DNA from: Variibacter sp.
GTDB lineage: Bacteria; Pseudomonadota; Alphaproteobacteria; Rhizobiales; Xanthobacteraceae
Assembly (NCBI GenBank): GCA_019689555.1
Contig: JADGHE010000015.1
Coordinates: forward strand, 1-64,000
DNA length: 64,000 nucleotides
Direction of reading: 5' to 3'
This document shows, piece after piece, positions 1,935 to 52,681 of this stretch (within the stretch, counting starts at the first letter, position 1; each line of letters begins with the position of its first letter). Both the position numbers and the translations under genes were made by a program. Under the pieces are notes generated by a model. The model did not search any database. It had not been told where the DNA came from and saw only the letters and a list, made by a program, of their open reading frames with translations.

Positions 1935-3433
1935 TGGACATTTTCGACCATCTCGCCCTCGGCTTCGGCGCGGCGCTCACGCTGTCCAATCTCGGCTTTT
2001 GTCTGATCGGGGCGCTGCTCGGCACGCTCATCGGCGTGCTGCCCGGCATCGGGCCGATCGCCACGATCGCGATGCTCCTCCCGCTCACTTTCGGCATGCC
2101 GCCGCTCGCGGCGCTGATCATGCTCGCCGGCATCTATTACGGCTCGCAGTTCGGCGGTTCGACCACCGCGATCCTCGTCAACCTGCCCGGCGAATCCGCA
2201 TCCGTCGTCACCTGCATCGACGGACACCGGATGGCGCGCCAGGGCCGTGCGGGGGCGGCGCTGTCGATCGCGGCCATCGGCTCGTTCGTCGCCGGCACGG
2301 CCGGCACCATCGTCATCGCGGTCTTCGGTCCGGTGCTCGCGGCCTTCTCGCAGAGGTTCAACTCCCCGGAATATTTCTCGCTGATGGTGCTCGGCCTCGT
2401 CTCGGCGGTCGTGCTCGCGCACGGCTCGCTGCTCAAGGCGGTGACGATGATCTTCGTCGGCCTCCTGCTCGGCATGGTCGGCACGGACATGACGAGCGGC
2501 ACCGGCCGCTACACCTTCGACATTCCCGAACTGTCCGACGGCCTCGGCTTCGTGCCGGTGGCGCTGGGGCTCTTCGGCCTTTCGGAGATCATCGTCAATC
2601 TGGAGCGGCCGGAGGCGCGCTCCCTGCTCGCCGGCAAGATCACGGGCCTGTGGATCCGCTGGCGGGAGTTGACGCAGAGCCTGCCCGCCGTGCTGCGCGG
2701 CACGGCGCTCGGCTGCGCCTTCGGCGTGTTGCCGGGCGGCGGGCCGACGCTGAGCGCCTTCGCCTCCTACTCGCTCGAGAAGAAGCTCGCCGACGATCCC
2801 GCGCGCTTCGGCCAGGGGGCGATCGAGGGCGTCGCGGGGCCGGAGTCGGCCAACAACGCCGCCGCGCAGACCTCGTTCATTCCGCTTCTCACGCTCGGCA
2901 TTCCCTCGAACGCCGTGATGGCGTTGATGATGGGCGCGATGATGATCCAGGGCATCGCCCCCGGCGCGCAGGTGATGAATCAGCGGCCGGAGCTGTTCTG
3001 GGGCCTCATCGCGTCCATGTGGGTCGGCAACGCGATGCTGCTCGTCATCAACCTGCCGCTCGTCGGGCTGTGGGCGACGCTGCTCAAGACGCCGTACCGC
3101 CTGCTGTTTCCGTGCATCCTCATTTTTTCCTGCATCGGGGTCTATTCGCTCAACACCAGCGCCTTCGAGGTGCTGCTCACCGCGTTCTTCGGCGTGGTCG
3201 GCTATGTCTTCGCCAAGCTCGACTGCGAGCCCGCGCCGCTGCTGCTCGGCTTCGTGCTCGGTCCGCTGATGGAGACGAGCCTGCGGCGCGCGCTCCTGAT
3301 CTCGCGCGGCGACCCGATGGTGTTTCTCGAGCGGCCGATCTCGGCGGTGCTGCTGGGGCTCGCGGCGCTGCTGCTTCTGATCGTCGTCGCGCCGGCGGTG
3401 CGCCGCGGCCGCGACACGGCCTTCCAGGAGTAG
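1934..3433 (+). CDS. tctA: tripartite tricarboxylate transporter large membrane subunit TctA
   Basis: Large permease subunit (499 residues, normal family length) with about a dozen transmembrane segments. The N-terminal conserved blocks GVLPGIGPIATIAMLLPLTF and GIYYGSQFGGSTTAILVNLPG are TctA signatures, and the internal repeat GVLPGGGPTLSAFASY is also present. It forms the translocation path for a carboxylate delivered by a Bug/TctC protein. The ATG overlaps the tctB stop by one base, so the two are one transcription unit. The substrate is unknown, but the surrounding catabolic enzymes suggest an organic acid that feeds them. Confidence 0.95.
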   Translation: MDIFDHLALGFGAALTLSNLGFCLIGALLGTLIGVLPGIGPIATIAMLLPLTFGMPPLAALIMLAGIYYGSQFGGSTTAILVNLPGESASVVTCIDGHRMARQGRAGAALSIAAIGSFVAGTAGTIVIAVFGPVLAAFSQRFNSPEYFSLMVLGLVSAVVLAHGSLLKAVTMIFVGLLLGMVGTDMTSGTGRYTFDIPELSDGLGFVPVALGLFGLSEIIVNLERPEARSLLAGKITGLWIRWRELTQSLPAVLRGTALGCAFGVLPGGGPTLSAFASYSLEKKLADDPARFGQGAIEGVAGPESANNAAAQTSFIPLLTLGIPSNAVMALMMGAMMIQGIAPGAQVMNQRPELFWGLIASMWVGNAMLLVINLPLVGLWATLLKTPYRLLFPCILIFSCIGVYSLNTSAFEVLLTAFFGVVGYVFAKLDCEPAPLLLGFVLGPLMETSLRRALLISRGDPMVFLERPISAVLLGLAALLLLIVVAPAVRRGRDTAFQE

Positions 3434-33895: not shown

Positions 33896-33913
33896 TCCGG
33901 AAGAGGTGTGTGC

Positions 33914-36900
33914 GTGAACATCATAATGCCCCAGTTCGACGTGCAGGCGCAGACCGCGGCCGAGGATTGGTACAAGGACGCGATCATCTACCAGCTGCAC
34001 GTCAAATCCTTTTTCGATTCGAACGACGACGGCATCGGCGACTTCGTCGGGCTGACGGAGCGGCTCGACTACCTGCAGGATCTCGGCGTCACGGCGCTGT
34101 GGCTGATGCCTTTTTATCCGAGCCCGGGCCGCGACGACGGCTACGACATCGCCGATTACCGGCGGATCAATCCCGATTTCGGGACGATGAAGGACTTCCG
34201 CCGCTTCATGGCGGAGGCCAAGCGGCGCAATCTGCGCGTCATCACCGAGCTCGTCATCAATCACACGTCCGACCAGCACCCCTGGTTCAAGCGCGCGCGC
34301 CGCAGCCGCCCCGGCAGCGACGCCCGCAACTGGTATGTCTGGAGCGATACCGACCAGAAATTTCTCGGCACCCGCATCATCTTCACTGACGCCGAGAAAT
34401 CGAACTGGACGTGGGACCCCGAGGCCGGCGCCTACTACTGGCACCGCTTCTTCTCGCACCAGCCGGACCTCAACTACGACAATCCGCGCGTGCTGTGGGC
34501 GGTGATCCAGGTGATGCGCCGCTGGCTCGATATGGGCGTCGACGGGTTCCGGCTCGACGCCATTCCCTATTTGTGCGAGCGTGAGGGGACGAACAACGAG
34601 AACCTCCCCGAAACGCACGCGGTCATCAAGAAGATTCGCGCGGAACTCGATTCATACGCCTCCGGCAAGCTCCTGCTCGCGGAAGCCAACCAGTGGCCCG
34701 AGGACGTAAGCGACTATTTCGGCGACGGCGACGAATGCCACATGGCCTATCACTTCCCGCTGATGCCGCGCATCTACATGGCGATCGCGCAGGAGGATCG
34801 CTTCCCCATCGCCGACATCCTGCGGCAGACGCCTGACATTCCGCCGAACTGCCAGTGGGCGCTGTTCCTGCGCAACCACGACGAGCTCACGCTCGAAATG
34901 GTGACCGACAGGGAGCGCGACTATCTGTGGTCCACCTACGCGGCCGATCCGCGCGCGCGGCTCAATCTCGGCATCCGCCGCCGTCTCGCGCCGCTGATGG
35001 ACAACGACCGGCGCAAGATCGAGCTCATGAACTCGCTGCTGATGTCGCTGCCGGGAACGCCGATCATCTACTACGGCGACGAGATCGGGATGGGCGACAA
35101 CATCTATCTCGGCGACCGCAACGGCGTGCGCACGCCCATGCAGTGGACGCCCGACCGCAACGCCGGCTTCTCGCGCTGCGACCCGGCGAAGCTCTACGCG
35201 CCGGTGATCATGGACCCGGTGTACGGCTACCAGGCGGTCAACGTCGAGGCGCAGTCGCGCAGCGTGTCCTCGCTTTTGAGCTGGATGAAGCGCATCATCG
35301 CGGTGCGCAAGTCCACGCAGGTGTTCGGGCGGGGAACGCTGACCTTCGTCCGCCCGAAGAACCGCGCCGTGCTCGCCTATCTGCGCCAGTATCAGAACGA
35401 GACCATCCTGTGCGTCGCCAATCTGTCTCGCTCCGCGCAGGCGGCCGAGCTCGATCTGTCGCAATGGCGCGGCCGCGTGCCGGTGGAGATGCTGGGGCGC
35501 ACGCGCTTCCCGCGCATCACGGAAGCGCCGTTCGTCGTCACCCTGGCGCCGTACGGCTTCTTCTGGTTCCAGCTCGTCGAGGAGGTGGGCGCGGAAGTCG
35601 AGGCGCCCTCGATTCTGCCCGAGCTCCCCACATTGGTGGTGCGGGATGTGCCGGATGCGGTTGTGGAAGGCCGCACGCGCCTCGTGTTCGAACGGGAAGT
35701 GCTGCCGGCCTTTCTGCCGAGCCGCCGGTGGTTCGGCGAGAAGCACAGCCGCACCCTCGAGGCGAAGATCGAGACGATCATCCCTCTCGAAGATCGCAAC
35801 CAAGGCATCGCCTGGACGCTCGTCAACGTCGCGACCGATCAGAGCAACAGCCGCTATGCGCTGCCGGTGGTCGTGCAATGGGGCAAGGCGGACCCGGCCC
35901 CGGGCCACGCGGGCGTGCTCGCGGCGGTGCGCCGCGGCGCGCGGGAAGGCTGGCTGGTGGATGCCGCCGCCGAGCGCGATTTCATGGCCTCCCTCATGGC
36001 CAAGCTGCGCAGCGGCGCGACGATCGAGGCGGGAGGAGGGCGCCTGCGCTTCCAGCCGAGCAAGAGCTTTGCCGAAGCGCCGCCCGTGGAGGTCGCGGAC
36101 GTGCGGGCCGTCAGCGCCGAGCAGTCGAATACGACCGCCATCATCAACCGCGACTATGTGGTGAAGGTGTTTCGCCGGCTGCAGACCGGCATCAACCCGG
36201 ACGTCGAGGTGAGCCGGTTCCTGAGCGACGTGGCGGGCTACCAGAACACGCCGTCCTTCGTCGGCGCGGTGGAATTCGAGCGGGGGGGCGAAACGGCGGC
36301 GCTCGCCATTGTTCATCGCTTCGTCGAGAACCAGGGCGACGGCTGGGCGCTGACGTCCTCCTATCTCGACCGCTTCCTCGACGATTACAGGCTTCTCGCG
36401 GCGGATGCCGCGGCGGATCCCGCCCAGCACGCGGCATTCCTCTTGCGCATGCGGCAGATCGGGCGCCGGGTTGCGGAGCTGCACAACGCGCTCGCGTCCG
36501 GAGCGCCCGGTTCCGCCTTCGCGCCGGAGCCCATCACCGCGGCCGATCTGCAGGCCTGGACCGAAGAACTGGTGCAGGATGCGGTTCGGACCTTCGACGC
36601 CCTGCAGCGGTCCCAGGCGCAGATTCCCGAGTCGATCCGTCCCCTCGTATCGGAACTCGTCGGCCGCAGGGACGCCGTCCTCGCGCGCATCCGCGGCCTG
36701 CTGCCCCCGGAACTGGACGGGCAGAAGATTCGTTACCACGGCGATCTGCATCTCGGGCAACTGCTGATTGTCAAGGACGACGTGTTCATCATCGACTTCG
36801 AAGGCGAGCCCCAGCGCGGCATCGAGGAGCGCCGCCGCAAGGCGCCTGCGGCGCGGGACGTCGCCGGGCTCGTGCGTTCCATCGACTATGCGGGCACCGC

Positions 36901-37191
36901 GGGCTTGGATCGCATGGTCCTCGCCACGCCCGAAGAGCGGGTGCGGCTTGCCCACGCCATCGAGGAGTGGCGCGCGCAATGCGTTGAGGCGCTGCTCCTC
37001 GCCCACCTCGAATTCGCCGAGACGGGATTGTGGCCGAGCGATCCGGAGGCCCGCCGGCGGCTCACGGACTTCTTCGTCCTGCAGAAGGCGGTCTACGAGA
37101 TCGGCTATGAGCTCGCCAACCGTCCGACCTGGCTGAACGTGCCGATGCGCGGTCTGTGGCGGCTGCTGTTCCCAGACGAAGGGGTGTACTG

Positions 37192-37192
<1 letters not shown>
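33914..37192 (+). CDS. treS: trehalose synthase / maltokinase fusion
   Basis: Bifunctional protein of about 1092 residues. Residues 1-555 are a GH13 trehalose synthase that interconverts trehalose and maltose ([51 protein letters not shown]-like segment). Residues about 570-1092 are a maltokinase (Mak/Pep2) that phosphorylates maltose to maltose 1-phosphate; its kinase loop HGDLHLGQ has D944 and a following [14 protein letters not shown] at 33914 follows GGAAGAGG at seven bases; ATG at 33926 is possible. The fusion directly channels trehalose into the GlgE substrate. Its stop overlaps the glgB start. Confidence 0.95.
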
Positions 37193-39345
<2,153 letters not shown>

Positions 39346-39347
39346 CC

Positions 39348-41423
39348 ATGCGCCTGCTGGAAGGATCCCCCCACAAACTGGGGGCCACGTGGGACGGGCG
39401 GGGCACCAACTTCGCGCTGTTTTCGGCGCATGCGGAAAAGGTCGAGCTCTGCCTCTTCGACCGGCAGGGGCGGCGGGAGCTCGAGCGCATCGCGCTGCCC
39501 GAGCGCACCGAAGACGTCTGGCACGGCTACCTGCCGGATGTTTTGCCCGGCCAAGTCTATGGATACCGCGTCCACGGCCCCTATGAGCCCGAGAGCGGCC
39601 ACCGCTTCAACCCCAACAAGCTGCTGATCGACCCCTACGCCCAGCGGCTCGTGGGCCGCGTCGTGTGGAGCGACGCCCATTTCGGCTACCGGGCCGGCAG
39701 CCCGCGCGCCGATCTCTCCTTCGACCGTCGCGACAACGCGCGCGGCATGCCGAAGGCCATGGTCGTCGACGAAGCCTTCACCTGGGGCGACGACAAGCGC
39801 CCGCACACGCGCTGGGAGGACACGATCATCTACGAGGCCCATGTGAAGGGCCTGACGATGCAGCGCACGGACGTGCCGCCCGGCTGGCGCGGCCTTTTCA
39901 GCGGACTCACGGCGCCCGGCCTCATCGATCACCTCCGGCGGCTCGGCGTCACCAGCATCGAGCTGCTTCCCGTCCAGGCCTTCGTGGACGATCGCCGACT
40001 GGTCGAGCGCGGGCTGCGCAACTACTGGGGCTACAACACGATCGGCTTCTTCGCCCCGGAGCCGCGCTACAGCACCGACGGCGGGATCGGCGCCTTCAAG
40101 TCCATGGTCTCGCGCCTGCACGCAGCGGGCATCGAGGTCATCCTCGATGTGGTCTACAACCACACGGCGGAGGGCAACCATCTGGGGCCGACCCTGTCGT
40201 TCCGCGGCATCGACAACGCGAGCTACTATTGGCTCCTGCCCGACAAGCCGCGCTTCTACGACGACTTCACGGGCTGCGGCAATGCGCTCAATGTCACGCA
40301 TCCGCGCGTGCTGCAGATGGTGATGGACTCGCTGCGCTACTGGGTCGAGGCCTGCCATGTGGACGGCTTCCGCTTCGATCTGGCGACCACGCTCGGCCGC
40401 GGCGCGCATGGTTTCGACCGGCGTGCCGCGTTCTTTGCGGCGATCGGCCAGGACCCGGTGTTGCGCCGCGTGAAGCTGATCGCGGAGCCGTGGGATCTCG
40501 GGCTCGGCGGCTACCAGGTCGGAAATTTTCCGACCGAATGGTCGGAGTGGAACGACGCTTACCGCAGGACGCTGCGCCGGTTCTGGCGCGGCGAGCCGCA
40601 CATGCTGGGCGATCTTGCCCGCCGCCTCACGGGCTCGGCGGACATTTTTCAGCGTCATGGCCGCGCGCCGCGCGCCAGCATCAATTACGTGACCGTGCAC
40701 GACGGCTTCACGCTCGCCGATGTCGTGAGCTACGAGGACAAGCACAACGAAGCGAACGGCGAGAACAACAGCGACGGTTCCGACCACAACGACAGCTTGA
40801 ACTGCGGGGTCGAAGGGCCCTCGGACGATCCCAAGATCGTGGAGCTGCGGCGCCGGCTGCGCCGCGCGCAGATCGCCTGCCTGATGCTGGCGCAGGGCGT
40901 TCCTCTGCTGCTCGCCGGCGACGAGGTCGGCAACAGCCAGAGCGGCAACAACAACGCCTACTGTCAGGACAACGAGATCGGCTGGGTGGACTGGTCGCGG
41001 CTCGGCGAGGACGGCGAGGACATGACGGACCTGATCCGGCGTCTCGCCGCCCTGCGCCGGCGCTATCCGCAATTGCGGCCGCGCCACTGGCTGCATGCGC
41101 CGCGCACCGGCGCGCCGCGCGAGGTCATGTGGTTCACGGCGGAAGCGACGGAAATGACCGAGCAGGACTGGATGTTTCCTGAGGGGCGCTTCCTCGCCTA
41201 TGTGCTCGGAACGGTCGAGCCGTCTCCAGGCCCGCTGTTCATCGTCGTCAACGGAGCCGCCGAAGCGGTGAAGTTCACCTTTCCGGCGTGGTTGGATTGC
41301 ACGCGCTGGACGTTCGAGGTCGCGACGGTGCCGTTGGACGACCCGGCCACGGTCATGGCGGAGCCGGGCGGCTCCGCCGTTGCGCCGCCGCGGTCCGTGG
41401 CCGTCTTTTCAGGGGCGGCCTGA
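39348..41423 (+). CDS. glgX: glycogen debranching enzyme
   Basis: GH13_11 isoamylase-type enzyme of 691 residues that hydrolyses alpha-1,6 branches of glycogen, giving linear maltodextrins. A CBM48 (GATWDGRGTNFALFSAHAEKVELCLFD) leads into the barrel. Catalytic regions are CHVDGFRFDLATTLGR and KLIAEPWDLGLGGYQVGNFP, with VTVHDGFTLADVVSYEDKHNEANGE as a family block. The ATG lies two bases after the glgB stop. Its products are substrates for TreY and MalQ. Confidence 0.96.
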   Translation: MRLLEGSPHKLGATWDGRGTNFALFSAHAEKVELCLFDRQGRRELERIALPERTEDVWHGYLPDVLPGQVYGYRVHGPYEPESGHRFNPNKLLIDPYAQRLVGRVVWSDAHFGYRAGSPRADLSFDRRDNARGMPKAMVVDEAFTWGDDKRPHTRWEDTIIYEAHVKGLTMQRTDVPPGWRGLFSGLTAPGLIDHLRRLGVTSIELLPVQAFVDDRRLVERGLRNYWGYNTIGFFAPEPRYSTDGGIGAFKSMVSRLHAAGIEVILDVVYNHTAEGNHLGPTLSFRGIDNASYYWLLPDKPRFYDDFTGCGNALNVTHPRVLQMVMDSLRYWVEACHVDGFRFDLATTLGRGAHGFDRRAAFFAAIGQDPVLRRVKLIAEPWDLGLGGYQVGNFPTEWSEWNDAYRRTLRRFWRGEPHMLGDLARRLTGSADIFQRHGRAPRASINYVTVHDGFTLADVVSYEDKHNEANGENNSDGSDHNDSLNCGVEGPSDDPKIVELRRRLRRAQIACLMLAQGVPLLLAGDEVGNSQSGNNNAYCQDNEIGWVDWSRLGEDGEDMTDLIRRLAALRRRYPQLRPRHWLHAPRTGAPREVMWFTAEATEMTEQDWMFPEGRFLAYVLGTVEPSPGPLFIVVNGAAEAVKFTFPAWLDCTRWTFEVATVPLDDPATVMAEPGGSAVAPPRSVAVFSGAA

Positions 41424-41425
41424 CC

Positions 41426-43201
41426 ATGCGCGCGCGCTTCGGCCCGCGCCTGGAGCCCGAAGGCGGAGCAACGCTGCGATTGTGGGCGCCGGCCGCCCGA
41501 CAGGTTGCGCTCGTGGGAGACGCCACGCTGCCCATGGAGCCGCGCGGCGGCGGCTGGTTCGAGGCGGCCGTGGCGGAAGCGGGGGCCGGCTTCCGATACA
41601 AGTTCCGCATCGACGACGCGATCGACGTGCCGGATCCGGCCTCGCACTTCCAGCCGCAGGACGTGCACGGGCCGAGCGCGATCGTCGACCACGCCTATGA
41701 ATGGCAATGCGCGGACTGGAAGGGGCGGCCCTGGCACGAGGCCGTCATTCTCGAACTTCACGTCGGCGCGTTCACGCCGGCCGGCACCTTCCGCGCGATC
41801 ATCGACCGCCTCGACGACATCGCCACAACCGGCGTCACCGCGATCGAGCTAATGCCGGTCGCGGATTTCGCCGGCCGGCGCAACTGGGGCTACGACGGCG
41901 TGCTGCTCTATGCGCCCGACAGCGCCTACGGGCGGCCGGACGACCTCAAGGCGCTGGTCGATGCGGCGCACCGGCGCGGCCTCATGGTGTTTCTCGACGT
42001 CGTCTACAATCACTTCGGGCCCGAGGGGAATTATCTCGGACGCTATGCGCCGGCCTTCTTCACGTCGAACCACCGCACGCCTTGGGGCGACGCGATCGAC
42101 TACCGCGTGCCCGAGGTGCGCGCCTTTGCGATCGACATCGCCCTGCACTGGCTCGATCACTACCGCTTCGACGGCCTGCGGCTCGACGCCGTGCACGCGA
42201 TCGTGGAGCCGGGGGAGCCGCACATTCTCGCGGAATTGAGCCGTGCCGTCGGCGCGTGGGCGCAAACGACCGGGCGGCTCGTTCACCTCGTTCTGGAGGA
42301 CGACGACAACCGCGCCTCGCTCCTCGATCCGGCGACCGTCGTGCCCTCGGGGAAGTACCGCGCGCAGTGGAACGACGATCATCACCATGCGTGGCACGTG
42401 CTGCTGACCGGGGAGGCGCGCGGCTACTACGTCGACTATGCCGAGGAGCCGCGCCGGCATCTCACACGCGTTCTTTCATCCGGGTTTGCGTACCAGGGGG
42501 AGCCTTCGCGTCACCGCAACAGCGCGCCGCGGGGCGAACCCAGCGCGGCGCTGCCGCCGACGGCCTTCGTCCATTTCCTGCAGAACCACGATCAGGTCGG
42601 CAACCGGCCGTTCGGCGACCGGCTGACCGCCCTGGCGAAGCCGGAGGCCGTCGCCGCGGCCTTGGCCGTCATGCTGCTCGCGCCTTCGCCGCCCCTGCTG
42701 TTCATGGGCGAGGAATGGGGGGCGACGCAGCCGTTTCCGTTCTTCTGCGACTTTCCGGGCGATCTCGGGGAGGCGGTGCGGCGCGGCCGGCGCGCCGAGT
42801 TCGCCGCGCATTTCGCCGATTTCGGTGCGGCGGACACCGTTCCCGATCCGCTGTCGGAAGAGACGTTCCGCGCGGCCGTGCTCGACTGGAGCGCGCGCGA
42901 GCGCGAGCCCCATGCGTCGCGGCTCGCGCTGGTGCGCGCGCTTCTCGCCGTTCGGCGCCGCTTCATCGTGCCGCGGCTCGCCGCGCTCGAGGCCGCACAG
43001 GCGGAGGCGCGCTTCATCGGCCCCGTGCTCGCGGCCCGGTGGGCCGCGGGCGAGGCCACGCTGCTTGCGCTCGTCGCCAATCTCGGGGATGGGGAGGCGG
43101 ACCTTCCGCCTTGGGCGCGCGCAAGCCGGCCGATCTGGGGCGGCGCGCCGCCGCCGCGCCTGCCGCCCTGGTCCGTCTCCTGGACGGCGGAGCCGCGCTG
43201 A
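41426..43201 (+). CDS. treZ: malto-oligosyltrehalose trehalohydrolase
   Basis: GH13_10 enzyme of 591 residues that releases free trehalose from maltooligosyl trehalose. It has an N-terminal E-set/CBM48-like domain (LRLWAPAARQVALVGD), a barrel with LHVGAFTPAGTFRAII, FDGLRLDAVHAI (nucleophile) and LVLEDDDNR (acid), and FLQNHDQVGNRPFGDRL, a TreZ signature. The ATG is two bases after the glgX stop, and the stop overlaps the treY ATG. Confidence 0.96.
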   Translation: MRARFGPRLEPEGGATLRLWAPAARQVALVGDATLPMEPRGGGWFEAAVAEAGAGFRYKFRIDDAIDVPDPASHFQPQDVHGPSAIVDHAYEWQCADWKGRPWHEAVILELHVGAFTPAGTFRAIIDRLDDIATTGVTAIELMPVADFAGRRNWGYDGVLLYAPDSAYGRPDDLKALVDAAHRRGLMVFLDVVYNHFGPEGNYLGRYAPAFFTSNHRTPWGDAIDYRVPEVRAFAIDIALHWLDHYRFDGLRLDAVHAIVEPGEPHILAELSRAVGAWAQTTGRLVHLVLEDDDNRASLLDPATVVPSGKYRAQWNDDHHHAWHVLLTGEARGYYVDYAEEPRRHLTRVLSSGFAYQGEPSRHRNSAPRGEPSAALPPTAFVHFLQNHDQVGNRPFGDRLTALAKPEAVAAALAVMLLAPSPPLLFMGEEWGATQPFPFFCDFPGDLGEAVRRGRRAEFAAHFADFGAADTVPDPLSEETFRAAVLDWSAREREPHASRLALVRALLAVRRRFIVPRLAALEAAQAEARFIGPVLAARWAAGEATLLALVANLGDGEADLPPWARASRPIWGGAPPPRLPPWSVSWTAEPR

Positions 43202-46080
43202 TGGCCCGCGACATCCCGCTTGCGACCTATCGCCTGCAGCTCACGAAGGATTTCGGTTTCGACGCTGCCGTGGAGCTCGTGCCCCATCTGCGCGCGCTCG
43301 GCATCAGCCACCTCTATGCCTCGCCGTTCCTCAAGGCGCGCGCCGGCAGCGTCCACGGCTACGACATCGTCGATCACAATCAGCTCAATCCCGAATTCGG
43401 CGGCGAGGAAGCCTTTGCGCGCCTTTCGCAGGCGCTCGACGCCGCCGGGATGGGGCTGATCCTCGATTTCGTGCCCAATCATATGGGTGTCGGCCGCGAC
43501 GACAATGCTTGGTGGCTCGACGTTCTCGAATGGGGGCGCAAATCGCCGTTCGCGGCCTCCTTCGACATCGCCTGGGAGACGCTCCCCTACAAGCCGGAAG
43601 GCGGCATATTGCTGCCGATCCTGGGGCGGCCTTACGGCGATTCCCTCGAGGCCGGAGAGATCACGCTGCGCTACAACGCCGAGGAGGGCAGCTTCTCCGC
43701 CTGGTATTTCGGGCATCGGCTGCCGATCCGCCCGAGCCGCTACGGCGAGATCATTCGCACCGTCGTCGCCGCGGCGGGCGCCGCGGAGGCTCCGGCGGGC
43801 CGGCGTCTGCTGGAGATCGCGAAACTTCATCCCCACCCGGGCGCGCCCTCGCGCGAGGAGGCGCCGGCCTTTAAGGCGGCGCTCGCCGCCGTCGAGGACG
43901 GCGCCAAGATCATCGGGCGCGGCCTGCGCGCCTATCGGCCCTCGCCGGACGAGCCTGCGGCGGTGCTCGCTCTGCATCGGCTGCTCGAGCGGCAGCATTA
44001 TCGCGTCGCGCACTGGCAGGTCGCCGGCAGCGAGATCAACTACCGGCGCTTCTTCGACGTGAACGATCTCGCCGGACTTGCGGTCGACAATCTGCACACC
44101 TTCACGGCCATTCACCGCCTGGTGGTGCGGCTGATCGCCGAAAACCGCCTGCACGGGCTGCGGCTCGATCACATCGACGGGCTGCAGAACCCCATTCGCT
44201 ACTGCCGCCGCCTGCAGCGGCTCGTGCGCGCCGCGCGCGGGCCGCGCGCCGCAGAGCCCTTCTACGTCATCGCCGAGAAAATCCTCGCCGAAGGTGAGAG
44301 CATGCCGCGCCTTCCCGGCGTCGCCGGCACCACCGGCTACGAATGGCTGAACACGATCTCGCGCGTGCTTCTGGATCCGCGCGGCATGCCGGTTCTGGAC
44401 GCGACCGCGCAGGCGTTCACCGGCGACGACCAGCCGTTCGCGGCGGTGCTCGCGCAGGCGAAGCGGCGCGTGCTGCACACGATCCTGGCGAGCGAGTTCA
44501 CGGTGCTCGCGCGTCTGCTCGCGCGCATCGCCGCGGGGCACTGGCGCACGCGCGATTTTACGCCCGACCGGCTCGGCGACGCGCTCGAACTGTTCGTCAT
44601 CCATTTCCCGGTCTACCGCACCTACGTCACGGTCGACGGTGCGACGCCCGTCGACCGGGCGACGATCGCCCGCGCCATCGAGGCGGCGCGCGCGCAGTGG
44701 TTCGGTCCCGATGCCGCCATCTTCGACCTGCTGCAGGATGCACTCACGCGCGATCTCGTCGGGCCGGGCCGGCGCGGCTACAGCCCCGCGCGCGTGCGCC
44801 AGTTCTCGCTCAAGGTCCAGCAGTTCACCGGTCCGATGATGGCGAAGTCGCTCGAGGACACGGCGTTCTATCGCTACTTCCATCTGCTCGCGCTCAACGA
44901 GGTGGGCGGCGATCCGACCGTTCCGGCGCTCACGGCCGCGCGGTTTCACCGGCGCATGGCCGGGCACGCGCGCACCGCGCCGCACGGGCTCACCGCGACC
45001 GCGACGCACGACACGAAACGCGGGGAGGATGCGCGGGCGCGCCTGCTCGCCTTGCCGGAGCTTGCGCACGAATGGGCCGCCCATGTGCAGGATTGGGCGC
45101 GCATGAATGCCGTCCTGGCGCGGAGCGAAGGCGCGCGCCGCGCGCCCTCCCGCGCGCACGAATACCTGGTGTATCAATCGCTCGCGGGCGCATGGCCGCT
45201 CGCCGGTCCGGACGGCTCCTTCGCCGACCGCATGGAAGCCTGTGCGATCAAGGCGGCGCGCGAAGGCAAGGTGGAGACGAGCTGGACCAATCCCGACGAG
45301 CGCTACGAGGCGGGGCTTGCGGCCTTCGTGCGCGGAATTCTCGATCCGACGGGCTCTCGCGCCTTCATCGATTCCTTTTCGGCGTTCGCCTGCCGTCTCG
45401 CGCTCATCGGCGCGCTCAACAGCCTGTCGCAACTCGCGCTCAAGGCGATGATGCCGGGGGTGCCGGACTTCTATCAGGGCACGGAGTTCTGGGACCTGTC
45501 GCTGGTCGATCCCGACAACCGGCGCCCTGTCGACTTCGCGGCGCGCGAGGCGGCGTTGCGCGCGGTGGAGGAGCGCTGCGACTGGCAGGAGCTTGCCCGC
45601 GGCTGGCCGGACGGCCGCATCAAGATGGCGCTCACGCGGCGGCTGCTGGCGCTGCGCGCGCAGTTCGCGCCCGTGTTCACCGACGGCGGCTATCGGCCGC
45701 TTCCCGTCGCCGGGGTCGACGCCGATCACGTCATTGCGTTCGCGCGGCACGCCGGCCGCGACGCCGTGGTGGTGGCGGTCGGCCGCCATTTCGCGCAGGT
45801 CACGGAAGGCGGGCGGCGCTGGTCGGCAGGCGCGGCGTGGGACGCCGCGATCGATGTCTCGCCCTGGACGATGTTGCGCGACGGCCTCGATGGCGCCCGC
45901 GACATCGCAGGCCGCATGCTCGAGGCGGCCGATCTGTTCGGCGTGCTGCCGGTCGCAATCCTGGCGGCGAGCGGGCAGGGCGATGCCGGCCGGCGTCGCC
46001 GGCCCGGTTCACCCCTTGGCGAGCGCAGGGAGGTGGGCGAGTTCGTCATCCCGCGCGGGCGGTCTGCCGTTGCCGCCTGA
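43201..46080 (+). CDS. treY: maltooligosyl trehalose synthase
   Basis: GH13_26 enzyme of 959 residues that isomerises the reducing-end alpha-1,4 bond of maltodextrins to the alpha,alpha-1,1 bond of trehalose. The N-terminus ATYRLQLTKDFGFDAAVELVPHL and GYDIVDHNQLNPEFGGEEAF are TreY hallmarks; FVPNHMGVG, GLRLDHIDGLQNP and VIAEKILAEGE form the active site. Length is at the long end but normal for proteobacteria. It is the last gene of the six-gene operon and overlaps treZ. Convergent genes follow after 48 bases. Confidence 0.97.
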   Translation: MARDIPLATYRLQLTKDFGFDAAVELVPHLRALGISHLYASPFLKARAGSVHGYDIVDHNQLNPEFGGEEAFARLSQALDAAGMGLILDFVPNHMGVGRDDNAWWLDVLEWGRKSPFAASFDIAWETLPYKPEGGILLPILGRPYGDSLEAGEITLRYNAEEGSFSAWYFGHRLPIRPSRYGEIIRTVVAAAGAAEAPAGRRLLEIAKLHPHPGAPSREEAPAFKAALAAVEDGAKIIGRGLRAYRPSPDEPAAVLALHRLLERQHYRVAHWQVAGSEINYRRFFDVNDLAGLAVDNLHTFTAIHRLVVRLIAENRLHGLRLDHIDGLQNPIRYCRRLQRLVRAARGPRAAEPFYVIAEKILAEGESMPRLPGVAGTTGYEWLNTISRVLLDPRGMPVLDATAQAFTGDDQPFAAVLAQAKRRVLHTILASEFTVLARLLARIAAGHWRTRDFTPDRLGDALELFVIHFPVYRTYVTVDGATPVDRATIARAIEAARAQWFGPDAAIFDLLQDALTRDLVGPGRRGYSPARVRQFSLKVQQFTGPMMAKSLEDTAFYRYFHLLALNEVGGDPTVPALTAARFHRRMAGHARTAPHGLTATATHDTKRGEDARARLLALPELAHEWAAHVQDWARMNAVLARSEGARRAPSRAHEYLVYQSLAGAWPLAGPDGSFADRMEACAIKAAREGKVETSWTNPDERYEAGLAAFVRGILDPTGSRAFIDSFSAFACRLALIGALNSLSQLALKAMMPGVPDFYQGTEFWDLSLVDPDNRRPVDFAAREAALRAVEERCDWQELARGWPDGRIKMALTRRLLALRAQFAPVFTDGGYRPLPVAGVDADHVIAFARHAGRDAVVVAVGRHFAQVTEGGRRWSAGAAWDAAIDVSPWTMLRDGLDGARDIAGRMLEAADLFGVLPVAILAASGQGDAGRRRRPGSPLGERREVGEFVIPRGRSAVAA

Positions 46081-46128: not shown

Positions 46129-46716
46129 TCAGCCCGCAGCCGGCCGGCCGTGCGCGCGCAGGAAGTCCTCGGCGCGGGCGCGCAGCGCGGCCGGTAGGGT
46201 GCCGGCGCGCGTCAGAATCACGAAGCGGGGATCGGTGGTGCGCCAGCGCAGGCGCAAGAGCGGCGCATAGACCTCGGACGTATAGAACGCAACCGCGGCC
46301 TCCGCGCTGGCAAACTCCAGCACCACGCCGCGGTCGGGCGCGAAGTCGCCGGCAAGGTGCGTGATCGTGCCGCCGCGCGCGAGCACGCGCGCGCCGAAGC
46401 GTCGTAGCAGATCGGGGATCGCATCCGCATAGGGACGAAAGCCATCGGGATCGAGCATCCTGTGGGCGGCGACGACGAAGGCGCCGCCGGCGTCGGGTGC
46501 GGCCAGTCCTTCCACCGCGAAGGCGCCGGACGTCGCGGAAGCCTTGGCCCGGAAAGCGGCGAGGCCCTTGTCGTCGGCGAGATAGGCGAGGGCGGTCGGG
46601 CCGAGCGGCCAGGGTCCTTCCAGCACCAGCATGTCGCCGCCGGCGAGCGCCTGCGCGCCGCTCGTGCGCGCCACGTCGGCGGGCAGCTCGGCCGCGCCCC
46701 AGATCACGTAATGCAT
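46129..46716 (-). CDS. DUF1330 domain protein with two related halves
   Basis: 195-residue protein. Residues about 95-180 match the DUF1330 ferredoxin-like fold (DPDGFRPYADAIPDLLRRFGARVLARGG, then RGVVLEFASAEAAVAFYTSEVY). The first half looks like a diverged, related alpha/beta unit (VLEGPWPLGPTALAYLADDKG). DUF1330 proteins belong to the dimeric alpha/beta-barrel group and have no firm function. It is downstream of the ROK-type kinase on the minus strand, with only five bases between them, so the two are likely cotranscribed. It converges on treY. Confidence 0.7.
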   Translation of the reverse strand: MHYVIWGAAELPADVARTSGAQALAGGDMLVLEGPWPLGPTALAYLADDKGLAAFRAKASATSGAFAVEGLAAPDAGGAFVVAAHRMLDPDGFRPYADAIPDLLRRFGARVLARGGTITHLAGDFAPDRGVVLEFASAEAAVAFYTSEVYAPLLRLRWRTTDPRFVILTRAGTLPAALRARAEDFLRAHGRPAAG

Positions 46717-46721
46717 CCGGC

Positions 46722-47792
46722 TCAATCCTTGTCGGGAGGGTTGCGATTGGTGAAGCGCGCATTGCCGAGGCCGGTGCCGATGGTCAAGACCCCCCAGTGC
46801 GTCACGTCGCGCATGAACGGGACCTCGCTCAATCCTTGAGTCACCGCGTCGTTGTGCATCACGATCACGGTCTCGTGCTTGCCGATGAGGGGGATTTGCT
46901 CGGCCAGCATCTTTGGCAGATTGAAGCCGGACGCCTCCCAGTTGCCGGGCAGGTTCTGCGCGCCGCGCGCGATGGATCCGTCGCTGCTGATCCTTCCCGG
47001 GCATCCGATGCCGATGAAGGGGGCGAGCCGGAAGTCCTCCTTCTCGGCGAGGCCGACGAGCTTGCCGAGCATGGCGACGAGCCGCTCAACCGCTTCGGTG
47101 CGGCTCGGCTTCTCGTCGGCGTGGCGCCACAGCTCCCGCTTCCACACGGAGGCCTTGGAGAAGTCCGGCGCCCTCTTGAGATCGAGCTTGACGAGGCCGG
47201 CGCGGATGTTGGTGCCGCCGATGTCCACGGCGAGAATTCCGTCGTAGCGGCCGAAGATCCAGGACGGCGCGAGGTGGGCCGCGCCGACGAGCCCGGCATC
47301 GTCCGGATGCTTGCGTATCGGGAGAAGCTCGACCTTGATGCCCTCGCCCTTGAGGATCACCCCGGCGCGGGCGATGCTGAGTTCGCCATATTGGCTGTCG
47401 CGCATGCCGCCGCCGACCACGATGCGCTCGGTGTCGCGCCAGGGCTTGGCCCGCAGCAGGTGGCGGACGACGTAGGCGAACTGCTGCGCGAACGCCTCGA
47501 TCGCACCGTGCATCAGCCCGGCCGCCTCGGGGCTGCCGCCCGAAAGTGCGGCGTCGAGCTTCTTCTTGTTGATTTCGGCGCTCGGCGTGTCCCCGAACGG
47601 GTCGCATTTGAGCTTGCCCAAGGGGGCGCGCAGCCGGTCCAGGATCGCCAAAAACGACTTCTTGCAGGCGCGGTCGCCCAAGAAGCCGCCGTTGTCTTTG
47701 ATCTCGATGTTGTAGCTGTCCACCTCCACGGCGGGCAGGCGGGCGACGCCGTGGCCGGCAAGCGGAGGAGGCGCTTTGACGTCGTCGGTCAT
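46722..47792 (-). CDS. ROK-type sugar kinase with circularly permuted domain order
   Basis: 356-residue protein with all main ROK kinase motifs but in swapped order. Residues 85-175 look like the C-terminal ROK part: GDS-like helix, IVVGGGM (124-130, adenosine site) and GLVGAAHL (167-174). Residues 186-348 look like the N-terminal part: VDIGGTNIRAG (189-199), GIGCPG (261-266), the catalytic D315 in MHNDA and TIGTGLG (337-343). The usual CxCGxxGC zinc motif is absent. It probably phosphorylates glucose or a related sugar with ATP, fitting glucose release by MalQ and trehalose turnover next door. It is transcribed with the DUF1330 gene and converges on the glg/tre operon. Confidence 0.8.
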   Translation of the reverse strand: MTDDVKAPPPLAGHGVARLPAVEVDSYNIEIKDNGGFLGDRACKKSFLAILDRLRAPLGKLKCDPFGDTPSAEINKKKLDAALSGGSPEAAGLMHGAIEAFAQQFAYVVRHLLRAKPWRDTERIVVGGGMRDSQYGELSIARAGVILKGEGIKVELLPIRKHPDDAGLVGAAHLAPSWIFGRYDGILAVDIGGTNIRAGLVKLDLKRAPDFSKASVWKRELWRHADEKPSRTEAVERLVAMLGKLVGLAEKEDFRLAPFIGIGCPGRISSDGSIARGAQNLPGNWEASGFNLPKMLAEQIPLIGKHETVIVMHNDAVTQGLSEVPFMRDVTHWGVLTIGTGLGNARFTNRNPPDKD

Positions 47793-48159: not shown

Positions 48160-49497
48160 ATGACAACTATGAAGCTGACGCGCCGTGACGTCCTTGTCAC
48201 GACGGCCGCTGCGGGTGCGGCGCTCGCCATGCCGCATGTTCGCGGCGCGCATGCCGCCGGAAAGCTGTCCATGGGCTTCTGGGACCATTGGGTCCCGGGG
48301 GGAAACAAGGCGTCGCAGGAACTGGTCCACCAGTGGGCCGAGAAGAACAAGGTCGAAGTTACGATCGACTACATCACCTCGCAGGGCAACAAGAACCTGC
48401 TGACCATCGCCGCGGAAGCGCAGGCCCGCTCCGGCCATGACATCCTCGCCTTCCCAACGTGGGAGCCGCAGGCGCACGCCAAGGATCTCGAGCCCGTCGA
48501 CGACGTGATGGCCGACCTCATCAAGGAGAACGGCGCGGTCAACCAGACGGTCGAGTATCTCGCCCGGGCCGACAATCGCTGGATCGCGGTTCCGACCTGC
48601 GTCGGCAGCCAGATCAAGGGGCCGTGCTCGCGCATCGACCTCATGAAGGAGCTGGCCGGCATCGACGTGCAGGCCATGTATCCGCCCGGCGGCCCGCCGA
48701 AGGCCGACGCCTGGACTCTCGATGCGATGCTGAAGGCGGCCGAAGCCTGCTACAAGGGCGACCACCCGATGGGCATCGGCCTTGGCCAGACGGAAGACAA
48801 TGTCGACACCGCCGGCGCCATCTTCCAGTCGTTCGGCGCCGATCTCGTCGACGCCAAGGGCGAAATCCGGGTGAAATCGGACGCCGTCCGCCAGGCGCTG
48901 GAGTACTACAAGAAACTTGCGCAATGGCTGCCGCCGGACGCGCCGGCCTGGGACAACGCCTCCAACAACAAGTATCTCATCTCCGGCAAGGCCTCGATGA
49001 TCATGAACCCGCCGAGCGCCTGGGCGGTGGCGAAGCGCGACGCGCCGAAGGTCGCCGAGCAGTGCTGGACGCACGGCATGCCCGCCGGGCCGAAGGGACG
49101 GTACTCGCCGTTCCTGCCCTACTTCCTCGGCATCTGGAACTTCAGCAAGAACAAGTCGGCGGCCAAGGACCTCCTTCGCTTCCTCGGCCAGCCCTCCTCC
49201 GTGGAGAAGATGGTGGAGGCGAGCCAGGGCTACGACCTCCCGGCCTTCGAGAAGCTGACGACGCTGAAGATCTGGGCCGAGGAAGGGCCGCCCAAGGGCA
49301 CGCTCTATCATTACCCGAACCCGCACAACCACCAGATCCTGTCGATCGCGGCGGCGCCCGCGCCGCCCAAGATCGCCCATCAGATCTATACGCAGGCCAT
49401 CCAAACCAAGATGGTCGTGCGCTTCATGCGGGGCGAGAAGCTGGAGCAGACGCTGGCCTGGGCCGAGTCCGAGCTCGAAGGGTTCATGCGGACCTGA
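48160..49497 (+). CDS. ABC transporter extracellular sugar-type substrate-binding protein
   Basis: Periplasmic binding protein of 445 residues, SBP_bac_1 family (cluster B, carbohydrate importers). The N-terminus has a twin-arginine signal (TRRDVLVTTAAAGAALAMPHVRGAHA), so Tat export is likely. GGGAGGAA precedes the ATG at 48160. The mature protein has the alternating alpha/beta pattern of this family and a central FPTWEPQAHAKDLEPVDD region. It delivers ligand to the two permeases and ATPase downstream. Its position beside the trehalose island makes a sugar or polyol ligand likely, but the ligand cannot be read. Confidence 0.92.
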   Translation: MTTMKLTRRDVLVTTAAAGAALAMPHVRGAHAAGKLSMGFWDHWVPGGNKASQELVHQWAEKNKVEVTIDYITSQGNKNLLTIAAEAQARSGHDILAFPTWEPQAHAKDLEPVDDVMADLIKENGAVNQTVEYLARADNRWIAVPTCVGSQIKGPCSRIDLMKELAGIDVQAMYPPGGPPKADAWTLDAMLKAAEACYKGDHPMGIGLGQTEDNVDTAGAIFQSFGADLVDAKGEIRVKSDAVRQALEYYKKLAQWLPPDAPAWDNASNNKYLISGKASMIMNPPSAWAVAKRDAPKVAEQCWTHGMPAGPKGRYSPFLPYFLGIWNFSKNKSAAKDLLRFLGQPSSVEKMVEASQGYDLPAFEKLTTLKIWAEEGPPKGTLYHYPNPHNHQILSIAAAPAPPKIAHQIYTQAIQTKMVVRFMRGEKLEQTLAWAESELEGFMRT

Positions 49498-49730
49498 CCG
49501 GCCGCGGCGCGCCGCAATCATTCGCCGGGGGGCGCCGCCGAAAAGCGAACTGCGGCAGCGCGCGTCGCGACGCGGTGCGGCGCCCGCTGCCGCCAAGACG
49601 AACGAGCAGAACGAAGAGGATGACGCAACAGCAACGTGCGATCGCTCCCGCCTGAGCCGTCTCCGGACGCCGTCGGCGCCGCGGGCGTCGGCGCGCGGGG
49701 CGACCCGAGCGATCGCGAGAGAGGTGTCGC

Positions 49731-50663
49731 ATGGTCGACGCGGCATTGGAAAGACCGGCGGCAGCGGGCGCGGTGCGCAAGCCCTCGGCCCTTCGCCGCA
49801 GGCTGCAGCGGAAATCGACGATCGCCTTCCTGATGACGCTTCCGCTCATTCTCCTCATCGCCGCCCTGGTCATCTATCCGGCGCTGTACTCGCTGCATCT
49901 GGCGACGCTGAACAAGTCGATGGAGCGCTTCGTCGGCCTGAGCAACTTCGCGTTCCTGTTCAAGCGCCAGACCTTCTGGATGGTGGTGAAGCAGTCCTGC
50001 ATCTTCGCCATCACCGCGGTGATCTTCAAAGCCCTGATCGGCTTCGTGGTCGCCCACTTCGTCCACAACATCCCGACCAAGGGTCAGCGCAAGTGGCGCG
50101 GCATGCTGCTCGTGCCGTGGGTGATCCCGCCGGCGATGAGCACGCTCGCCTGGCTGTGGCTGTTCGACCCGTCCTACAGCGCCTTCAACTGGCTCCTGGC
50201 GAAATTCGGCGTCGAGGCGATCCCGTGGACGGCGGAGGCGGGGTGGGCGCGCTTCTCGGTGATCCTCGTCAATGTCTGGATCGGCTCGCCCTTCTTCATG
50301 ATCATGTATCTCGCGGCGCTGAAGTCGGTTCCGGAGCAGCTCTACGAGGCCGCGGCCATCGACGGCGCCAACTGGTGGCAGCGCATCTGGTACGTAACGC
50401 TGCCGATGATGCGCAACATCATCGCCATCACGGCGCTGTTCTCGCTGATCGTGACCTTCGCCAACTTCGACATCGTCCGCATTCTCACCGCGGGCGGCCC
50501 CATCGACCAGACGCACGTGTTCGCGACCTGGGCGTTCTGGATCGGCATCCAGGGCGGAGACATCCCGCTCGGCGCCGCCGTGTCGTTGTTCATGGTGCCG
50601 ATCCTGTCGATCGCTGCCATTTTCATTCTGCGCGACATCAATCGCCGGGGGAATGAAGCATGA
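49731..50663 (+). CDS. sugar-type ABC transporter permease 1
   Basis: Inner-membrane permease (310 residues) of the MalF/UgpA class with six transmembrane segments and a cytosolic N-terminus rich in basic residues. The EAA loop EQLYEAAAIDGANWWQRIWYVTLP contacts the ATPase. AGAGAGGTG precedes the ATG at 49731. A 233-base gap separates it from the binding-protein gene, and its stop overlaps the second permease by four bases. Confidence 0.94.
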   Translation: MVDAALERPAAAGAVRKPSALRRRLQRKSTIAFLMTLPLILLIAALVIYPALYSLHLATLNKSMERFVGLSNFAFLFKRQTFWMVVKQSCIFAITAVIFKALIGFVVAHFVHNIPTKGQRKWRGMLLVPWVIPPAMSTLAWLWLFDPSYSAFNWLLAKFGVEAIPWTAEAGWARFSVILVNVWIGSPFFMIMYLAALKSVPEQLYEAAAIDGANWWQRIWYVTLPMMRNIIAITALFSLIVTFANFDIVRILTAGGPIDQTHVFATWAFWIGIQGGDIPLGAAVSLFMVPILSIAAIFILRDINRRGNEA

Positions 50664-51571
50664 CCGCCGCCTCCGCCGCCCACACCGTCCCGGCCACGCC
50701 CCGCAAATACGGGAGCATGAGTCGCGACCGGCGCTGGGCGCTGTGTCTCTCCTATTTCTTCCTGGTGGTGTTCGCGATCTTCTTTCTGACGCCGCCGGTC
50801 TACATGTTCATCACCTCGATCAAGACGAGCCAGGAGATTTCGGCCGCCGTCAATCCGTGGTGGGTCTACAATCCCTCGCTCGCCAATTACGTCGAGCTGT
50901 TGAGCTCACCCGTCTTCCTCACCTTCTTCCGCAACTCGGCGATCGTCTCGGTGAGCGTCGTCGTCATCACGATGCTGATCAGTGTGCCGGCGGCCTTCGC
51001 CCTCTCGCGCATGAAGTTCTGGGGTTCGGCCACGCTCGCGACCGGCGTCTTTCTCACCTACCTCATTCCGGAGACGCTGCTGTTCATCCCGCTGTTCAAG
51101 ATGTTTGCGACGTTCCGGGACTGGACGGGCATCGAGCTCATCAATCGCTGGTGGGCGCTGCTCCTGCTTTATCCGACGCTCACGGTGCCGTTCTGCACCT
51201 GGATCATGATCGGCTACTTCGCGTCGATCCCCAAGGAGCTGGACGAGGCGGCGCTGATGGACGGCGCGAACTACCGGCAGATCCTCACCCGCATCTTCAT
51301 TCCGGTGGCGCTGCCCGGGCTCATCGCCGCGACCATCTTCGCCTTTACGGTGAGCTGGGCGCAGTTCCTCTACCCGCTCGCCTTCACCACGTCGGCCGAC
51401 CAGCTCGTTCTGCCGGTCGGGATCGTGACGACGCTCATCAAGGGAGACGTGTTCAACTGGGGGCAGATCATGACCGGCGCGCTGCTCGGCGCGGCGCCGC
51501 CGCTCATCATCTACGCCTTCCTCATGGACTACTACATCGCCGGGCTGACCGCCGGCGCAACGAAGGGGTGA
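50660..51571 (+). CDS. sugar-type ABC transporter permease 2
   Basis: MalG/UgpE-class inner-membrane permease of 303 residues with six transmembrane segments. The EAA loop is KELDEAALMDGANYRQILTRIFIPVALPG. It starts within the stop of permease 1 (ATGA), so the two half-channels are translationally coupled at equal stoichiometry. The ATPase gene starts nine bases after its stop. Confidence 0.94.
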   Translation: MTAASAAHTVPATPRKYGSMSRDRRWALCLSYFFLVVFAIFFLTPPVYMFITSIKTSQEISAAVNPWWVYNPSLANYVELLSSPVFLTFFRNSAIVSVSVVVITMLISVPAAFALSRMKFWGSATLATGVFLTYLIPETLLFIPLFKMFATFRDWTGIELINRWWALLLLYPTLTVPFCTWIMIGYFASIPKELDEAALMDGANYRQILTRIFIPVALPGLIAATIFAFTVSWAQFLYPLAFTTSADQLVLPVGIVTTLIKGDVFNWGQIMTGALLGAAPPLIIYAFLMDYYIAGLTAGATKG

Positions 51572-51580
51572 GGGGAGGAC

Positions 51581-52681
51581 ATGGCCCAGGTGTCATTGCA
51601 CAAGGTGGTCAAGAGGTTCGAGGACACCGAGGCGGTGCGCGGCATCGACCTCGAAATCGCCGACAAGGAGTTCGTCGTGTTGGTCGGGCCCTCCGGCTGC
51701 GGCAAATCCACGACGCTGCGGATGATCGCGGGCCTCGAGGACGTGACGGACGGCGAGATCGTGGTCGACGGCGTGCTGATGAACGACGTGCCGCCGAAGG
51801 ACCGCGACATGGCCATGGTGTTCCAGAACTATGCGCTTTATCCGCACATGACGGTCTACGAGAACATGTCCTTCGGGCTGCGCCTCAAGCGCTATCCGAA
51901 GGACGAGATCGCCCGGCGCGTGCAGGAGGCCGCGCGCATTCTCGACATCACCGAGCTGCTCGACCGCAAGCCGCGCCAGCTCTCGGGCGGCCAGCGCCAG
52001 CGCGTGGCCATGGGCCGCGCCATTGTGCGCAACCCGAAGGTGTTTCTGTTCGACGAGCCGCTGTCGAACCTCGACGCCAAGCTGCGCGTGCAGATGCGCA
52101 CCGAGATCAAGCGCGTGCACCAGAAGGTGCGCACCACGACGGTCTATGTCACGCACGATCAGGTGGAGGCGATGACGCTCGCCGACCGCGTGGTGGTCAT
52201 GAACCGCGGCCAGATCGAGCAGATCGGCACGCCGAACGAGCTCTACCACGCGCCGGCGACCCGCTTCGTGGCGGGATTCATCGGCTCGCCGTCGATGAAC
52301 TTCCTGCCGTGCCGGCTCGAAGCGGTGGGCGAGGGGCTGCAGGTGCGCCTCTCCGACCAGATCGCGTTTCCGGTGCCGCCCGAGCGCGTGGCGCGCTACC
52401 GGCCGCATGTCGGCCGGGGCGGAATCCTGTTCGGGCTGAGGCCGGAGCACATCACCGAGGCGCGGCCGAACGGCGGCCGCCACGTGGCCGAATTCGACGC
52501 CTTTCTGGAAGTCACTGAGCCGATGGGCAACGAGACGATGGTGTTCTTCTCCGTCGCCGGGAAGGAGGTGTGCGCACGGGTGAGCCCCAATGCGGGCGCG
52601 CGCGAGGGCTCGCCTCTGCGCATGGGGGCGCATCTCGACCACATGCACCTCATCGACGAGGCGAGCGGGCGGGTGTTGTAG
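51581..52681 (+). CDS. sugar-type ABC transporter ATP-binding protein (MalK/UgpC class)
   Basis: 366-residue ATPase powering the importer. Walker [10 protein letters not shown], the Q-loop [13 protein letters not shown], the signature [14 protein letters not shown], Walker [16 protein letters not shown] and the H-loop YVTHDQ are all intact. Residues about 240-366 form the C-terminal OB/TOBE regulatory domain typical of MalK-like proteins. GGGGAGG precedes the ATG. One such ATPase can serve several sugar importers, so its partner set may extend beyond this operon. Confidence 0.96.

Follow-up and report, generated by a model that had tools for sequence, protein, structure and literature searches.

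Sugar kinases of the ROK family (PF00480; NanK, NagK, glucokinase and the Mlc-type repressors) typically carry the motifs DxGGTxxR, NDA, GTGxG and GGG, and conventional members have a sugar-binding ExGH motif and, typically but not universally, a CxCGxxGC zinc motif. Many ROK proteins are repressors. Glk-type glucokinase (PF02685) is a separate family within the same two-lobed kinase superfamily. It is, to our knowledge, uncommon for a natural circular permutation to endure as an entire enzyme family. The gene described here very probably encodes such a protein, a two-lobed sugar kinase of the ROK fold that is a natural circular permutant. Both lobes and the phosphate-1, phosphate-2, NDA and GGG motifs of the ROK sugar kinases are also present in the permuted kinase, and each half superposes on ROK structures, but the halves are swapped, the zinc motif is absent and ExGH is not clearly placed. 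The polyphosphate-glucokinase-like short ROKs (NF045942; structure 1woq) have NDAxxQG and the lack of a zinc motif in common with it, whereas their order is conventional and their C-lobe is shorter. No description of a permuted ROK was found in the open-access literature (preprints and most subscription papers fall outside that scope), and none is given in the accessible parts of PMC1079889, PMC2213659, PMC9611204 and PMC1976428, in line with the earlier note, which knew of no description of the arrangement.

The window, which is the whole stretch of 64,000 nucleotides analysed, carries the permuted kinase gene on its minus strand at 46722-47792, with the ATG at 47792 and the stop codon at 46722-46724, and encodes 356 aa. 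The assignment was based on the reading frame, Pfam, the family alignment and hhalign; the plus strand across the same interval is an unrelated open frame. An error of frame or start was rejected, since the gene is a single open frame and many relatives share its start, their tblastn matches beginning at residue 1 or 2. The equivalent of the ROK C-terminal lobe is encoded first (residues 34-177, 47262-47693, corresponding to ROK profile positions 180-302) and contains the adenosine-type GGG motif IVVGGGM (residues 124-130, 47403-47423) and GAAHL (residues 170-174, 47271-47285), which hhalign pairs with the usual C-terminal end of ROK proteins. Next comes a linker that bridges the former C and N termini (residues 175-185, 47238-47270; hhalign). 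The equivalent of the ROK N-terminal lobe comes second (residues 183-351, 46740-47246, ROK profile 5-151, from the Pfam half match, structure alignment and hhalign), with the phosphate-1 motif VDIGGTNIRAG (residues 189-199, 47196-47228), GIGCPG (residues 261-266, 46995-47012), NDA with the presumed catalytic aspartate D315 (residues 314-316, 46845-46853; HNDA at 313-316) and the phosphate-2 motif GTGLG (residues 339-343, 46764-46778). The earlier note had placed the GGG and GAA elements ahead of DIGGTN, GIGCPG, NDA and GTGLG and had the chain ending shortly after the last; every motif lies where it had put it, and 13 residues remain after GTGLG.

Swapping of the halves was examined with Pfam, HMMER and hhalign. 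The whole protein matched Pfam ROK at 38.7 bits against a gathering cut-off of 22.9, in two stretches. Residues 186-356 alone matched ROK 2-141 (27.3 bits, E 3.2e-6), which exceeds the cut-off, and residues 1-185 alone matched ROK 211-292 (15.5 bits, E 0.013), which as a single sequence is under it. By comparison, the Pfam ROK match of 24 of 62 rows was a single stretch that began no later than position 4 and reached at least 288. The match stopped at ROK 141-151 in 11 family rows, a feature that is not diagnostic alone, as the match also ends at 144-145 in four short ROKs of conventional order. For hhalign, 29 family members were then built into a profile and compared with a profile of 30 conventional ROKs (a set that includes L193, Glk-like by eye). 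In native order the alignment fell into two out-of-order pieces, residues 183-351 on ROK 5-151 (score 71.0) and residues 34-177 on ROK 180-302 (52.1, probability 90.8, E 1.2e-6). The family profile was rotated 15 positions at a time, with 183-186 tried one by one; the scan peaked at 184/185, where one colinear alignment was obtained (104.3, E 2e-14), with rotated positions 1-349 on ROK 7-302. Colinearity over the whole profile was thus reached only after rotation near 184/185, and the single N-lobe-then-C-lobe match of a conventional ROK was not found for the window protein. As controls, 17 conventional ROKs scored best unrotated against 13 others (363, with six other rotations giving 197-332), and ten column-shuffled family profiles scored 12.6-20.5. 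The gain depended on the target: the 17 other conventional ROKs gave a rise from 76.4 to 100.5 on rotation, 13 kinase-type ROKs (L147-159) as the only target gave 51.9 both native and rotated, with the first half as the best native piece, and a polyphosphate-glucokinase-like profile gave 84.0 with and without rotation. Rotation brought no gain in a HMMER scan with Pfam ROK (rotated 31.0, native 31.1 bits) or with NCBIfam NF045942 (polyphosphate glucokinase), against which the window protein scored 27.9 and its rotated copy 28.0, with a cut-off of 250; HMMER is indifferent to rotation because its local multi-hit scores take little account of order. A strict motif check found the conventional order in just 16 of the 30 conventional ROKs, and we take the pattern used to have been too strict; the conventional order of ordinary ROKs is instead judged from the 24 single-stretch Pfam matches and from the rotation control.

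A model of the whole protein had a pLDDT of 88.8 and a pTM of 0.87, and mean pLDDT across the linker was 88 (block 171-180) and 94 (block 181-190). In VIA-align, model residues 182-350 aligned with ROK N-lobes (best 2yhy, Z 14.4, rmsd 2.0, 147 aligned residues, 22% identity). Among the 50 rows shown, those taken to be ROK began at model residues 178-185, with the exception of 7rhe (144, rmsd 9.2), so that in the superposition called for in the earlier note the whole model did not follow the sequence order of a conventional ROK. Several hexokinase rows and MreB aligned over model residues 13-353 in native order at an rmsd of 3.1-4.7; this looser fit we attribute to the resemblance between the two lobes, which would be expected if both have one basic fold. 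Residues 13-185 modelled alone gave a weaker model (pLDDT 75.7, pTM 0.74), which aligned with ROK C-lobes (best 3r8e, Z 8.5, rmsd 3.6, 140 aligned). Its first 17 rows, with Z from 8.5 to 6.4, were ROK proteins, five by title and 12 taken to be so, followed by pantothenate kinases, hexokinases and more ROKs. On the same chains the two halves abut, the first ending and the second starting at 144/146 in 5nck, 135/137 in 2gup, 216/218 in 4ija, 145/146 in 6q26 and 236/237 in 7rhe; a second alignment starting 1-2 residues past the first in these five places the break just after the GTGxG strand. In the N-half rows 3r8e, 3vgk, 6q27, 4db3 and 7p7w the alignment already starts at chain positions 63-107, ahead of the proposed break, and such rows do not fix its position. 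Foldseek with the N-half model gave no match at E 0.001, the top row being AnmK, and no close solved structure was found for any family member. Because Z near 8 is middling by the alignment tool's own note, structure supports rather than proves the permutation.

Each half matches the opposite ROK lobe, and from profile and structure together, as read from the sequences and predicted models, we consider the circular permutation established; the reading came through the profile and structure tests meant to refute it. The separate test of residues 1-185 showed that they are not an unrelated domain, their profile match being the ROK C-lobe. These data also bear on whether truncation or misassembly might have left a conventional ROK that lacks its C-lobe and carries an unrelated domain at its N terminus. 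The weak single-sequence Pfam match of the first half (E 0.013) would suit such a gene, but that half matches the ROK C-lobe by both profile and structure and the same full-length order recurs in relatives from many assemblies, which makes the proposal scarcely credible, barring an artefact in the matches of the first half. A truncated conventional ROK with an unrelated domain was rejected on these grounds.

Relatives of the window protein were collected by blastp (E up to 1e-100), and 103 full-length rows of 105 were kept after the fragments L104 and the second piece in L001 had been dropped. The motif order GGG, DIGGT, HND, GTGLG was the same in 103 of 103; the set was found by similarity to a permuted protein and could hardly show another order, and it includes the window protein itself, at least one duplicate (L024 = L083) and L092, which is without the first 49 residues. 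Among 40 flanking loci, the motifs were in permuted order within one open frame in 36, L228 and L231 differ in the DIGGT pattern, and the frame is interrupted in L225 and L227. Twenty-nine members, chosen by hand from the 103, were aligned, and all 29 matched Pfam ROK at E up to 1 (best 6.4e-14). The core residues of DxGGTxxR, NDA, GTGxG and GGG were invariant in all of them. The invariant positions include G127-G129 in the nucleotide motif, P176 and W178 in the linker, D190, G192, G193, N195 and R197 in phosphate-1, G261, P265 and G266 in GIGCPG, N314 and D315 in NDA, and G339-N344 including GTGLG. Estimates of dN/dS were 0.08-0.22 in eight of nine pairs, the ninth pair being identical sequences, and on these codon comparisons the permuted family is shown to be under purifying selection. 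The shared order, these dN/dS values and the spread described below together argue that the arrangement is old and under selection, and we infer a single origin for the family.

In the species-genome collection, at least 595 stretches matched a pattern and at least 542 of them encode a relative (tblastn, E 1e-3), the best 80 of which were examined. Of 61 genomes, comprising that of the window and those of its relatives, 23 had a match, the one in G035 covering only residues 50-352. A long match to the permuted profile was found in 16 of 385 genomes of the class sample, with a weak N-lobe match alone in 1, and in 22 of 398 genomes of the phylum sample, 5 of them outside the class, with a weak N-lobe match alone in 30; the two samples overlap and include the window's genome. 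No strong match in conventional order, that is, no unpermuted close homologue, was found in either sample. Eight long matches in the genome samples contain an internal stop; six of these are intact frames ending just after GTGLGN and two (L225 and L227) are family copies with an interrupted reading frame. Among plasmid records, 206 of 72,556 had a match, mostly from Rhizobium (111) and Sinorhizobium (79), and 204 covered at least 80% of the query. Of the plasmid copies listed, those with an annotation bear the name 'ROK family protein', 'glucokinase' or 'hypothetical protein', and one short match is annotated as a response regulator; the three former labels hide the arrangement, including in Sinorhizobium meliloti, which is genetically tractable. 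More than one match was present in each of the genomes G616 and G632, and L001 carries at 2789-3121, some 5 kb away from a full copy, 111 aa left over from a second family member (corresponding to query residues 72-177).

The new chain ends fall between the GTGxG strand and the ExGH/zinc region, and the old ends are joined by the conserved linker. In the proposed course of the chain, a short segment of about residues 175-185 would connect the old N and C termini, and the new termini would have arisen past the phosphate-2 strand (GTGLGNARFTN) and ahead of the ExGH/zinc region of typical ROKs. In the region that replaces ExGH/zinc, H14, N28 and G39-D40-R41 were invariant in the 29 aligned members, and profile alignments placed differing stretches at ExGH with low confidence. 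A CxCGxxGC-like motif was found in none of the 103 relatives, as the earlier note had said of the window protein; as a mark of the permuted arrangement its absence did not hold up, and zinc loss as a special feature of the family was rejected, because the motif is likewise missing from all 14 short polyphosphate-glucokinase-like ROKs of conventional order. In a kinase fold that has been studied intensively, the permutation puts the chain ends beside the phosphate-binding site, and it offers a natural test of how much lobe order matters for folding and domain closure.

Since the fold consists of two lobes that close round ATP and sugar, the swapped chain could still assemble the same active site. 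In the predicted enzyme, DIGGTN and GTGLG would hold the phosphates, GGG would hold the nucleotide and D315 would be the base acting on the sugar hydroxyl. The intact, invariant motifs suggest that the permuted protein is probably an active hexose kinase, and its substrate is probably a hexose, most likely glucose, the reaction on glucose being expected of Glk as well. The window gene is the only Pfam ROK match of its genome. A Glk is encoded in the same genome at G000:C98 (matching positions 1-312 of 314 in one stretch), so the permuted enzyme would be an additional kinase, and the proposal that it is the genome's only glucokinase was rejected.

The origin of the two lobes was considered separately. 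Of the two profiles tried, the N-lobe is nearer the polyphosphate-glucokinase-like profile (84.0) than conventional ROK (71.0), and the C-lobe is nearer conventional ROK (52.1) than the polyphosphate-glucokinase-like profile (19.2). The lobe trees conflict in the same way: the C-lobe tree puts the family among conventional ROKs (90/88), and in the N-lobe tree the conventional ROKs group together without it (89/87). Both results would suit a fusion of separately evolved pieces, an ordinary ROK C-lobe placed before a polyphosphate-glucokinase-like N-lobe, in which the protein would work alike and its history would be one of fission and fusion. A chimeric origin is possible on these comparisons, but the supports are modest, the branches are long, the trees are unrooted, 7 of the 30 conventional rows were dropped for a missing motif and the N-lobe bootstrap is unsettled; moreover, the profiles compared differ in diversity and C-lobe length, and both lobes may simply be old and divergent. 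We consider fusion rather unlikely next to permutation of a single ROK chain. Zinc-less ROKs of about 230 aa that resemble polyphosphate glucokinase (L237-L248, L191 and L192) were also noted, and the two that were scanned fall far below the NCBIfam cut-off.

In the window, a compact glycogen/trehalose cluster lies on the plus strand at 33908-46080 (a TreS-maltokinase fusion, GlgB and GlgX-like, TreZ-like and TreY-like proteins, names that follow from Pfam domains), and a divergent ABC importer, for which a sugar substrate is presumed, lies on the plus strand at 48160-52681 (binding protein, two permeases and MalK-type ATPase). An ORF of about 195 aa (46129-46716, minus strand) is directly downstream of the kinase, a few bases away, and from this spacing is possibly co-transcribed with it; Pfam gave nothing for it at E 1e-5, and tblastn at E 1e-20 found no match to it in 127 loci holding other family members. 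The closest relative examined (L197, 68% identity) keeps TreS-Mak, GlgB, GlgX and the importer. Across the 127 gene-bearing loci, the GlgB, GlgX, TreZ and SBP probes matched only L197 (the TreZ match may be the GlgX-like gene), the TreS-Mak probe matched L042, L052 and L197, the TreY probe matched none, and both OtsB probes matched the same 5 loci, three of which are near-identical Rhizobium-type islands. In Rhizobium and Shinella plasmids the trehalose-phosphatase gene otsB lies next to the kinase gene and diverges from it, and otsB also adjoins the gene in G055, and in one S. meliloti record the neighbour is a NAGGN osmoprotectant peptidase. Three different settings point to trehalose/osmolyte metabolism, though they form a minority of loci. 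Most Bradyrhizobium loci gave no functional hint from their neighbours, which by eye we take to be ribosomal proteins L21 and L27 and Obg.

From this setting, a role near trehalose/glycogen or osmotic-stress metabolism is suggested for the kinase. At several loci the gene is transcribed divergently from transport or trehalose genes, which, together with the unclear ExGH sugar motif and the many repressors among ROK proteins, would fit a family that has lost kinase activity and acts as a sugar sensor or regulator of the neighbouring trehalose/osmolyte genes. This is very unlikely in our judgement, as all 29 aligned members keep the catalytic and phosphate motifs unchanged, the two lobes use up the whole chain, and a search of the 29 members for DNA-binding families gave one chance-level match alone (bHLH_INO2, E 0.15, in 1 of 29). 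The permuted protein as an active kinase is preferred. A more speculative form of that reading, to which we give little weight, is an old permutant whose C-lobe possibly came from a conventional ROK and its N-lobe from a polyphosphate-glucokinase-like one; opening of the chain beside the phosphate-2 strand would have altered the sugar pocket and led to a new substrate tied to trehalose/osmolyte metabolism. Finally, DUF892/ferritin-like genes occur near 8 of the 127 copies (L001, L002, L052, L079, L140, L211, L233 and L234).
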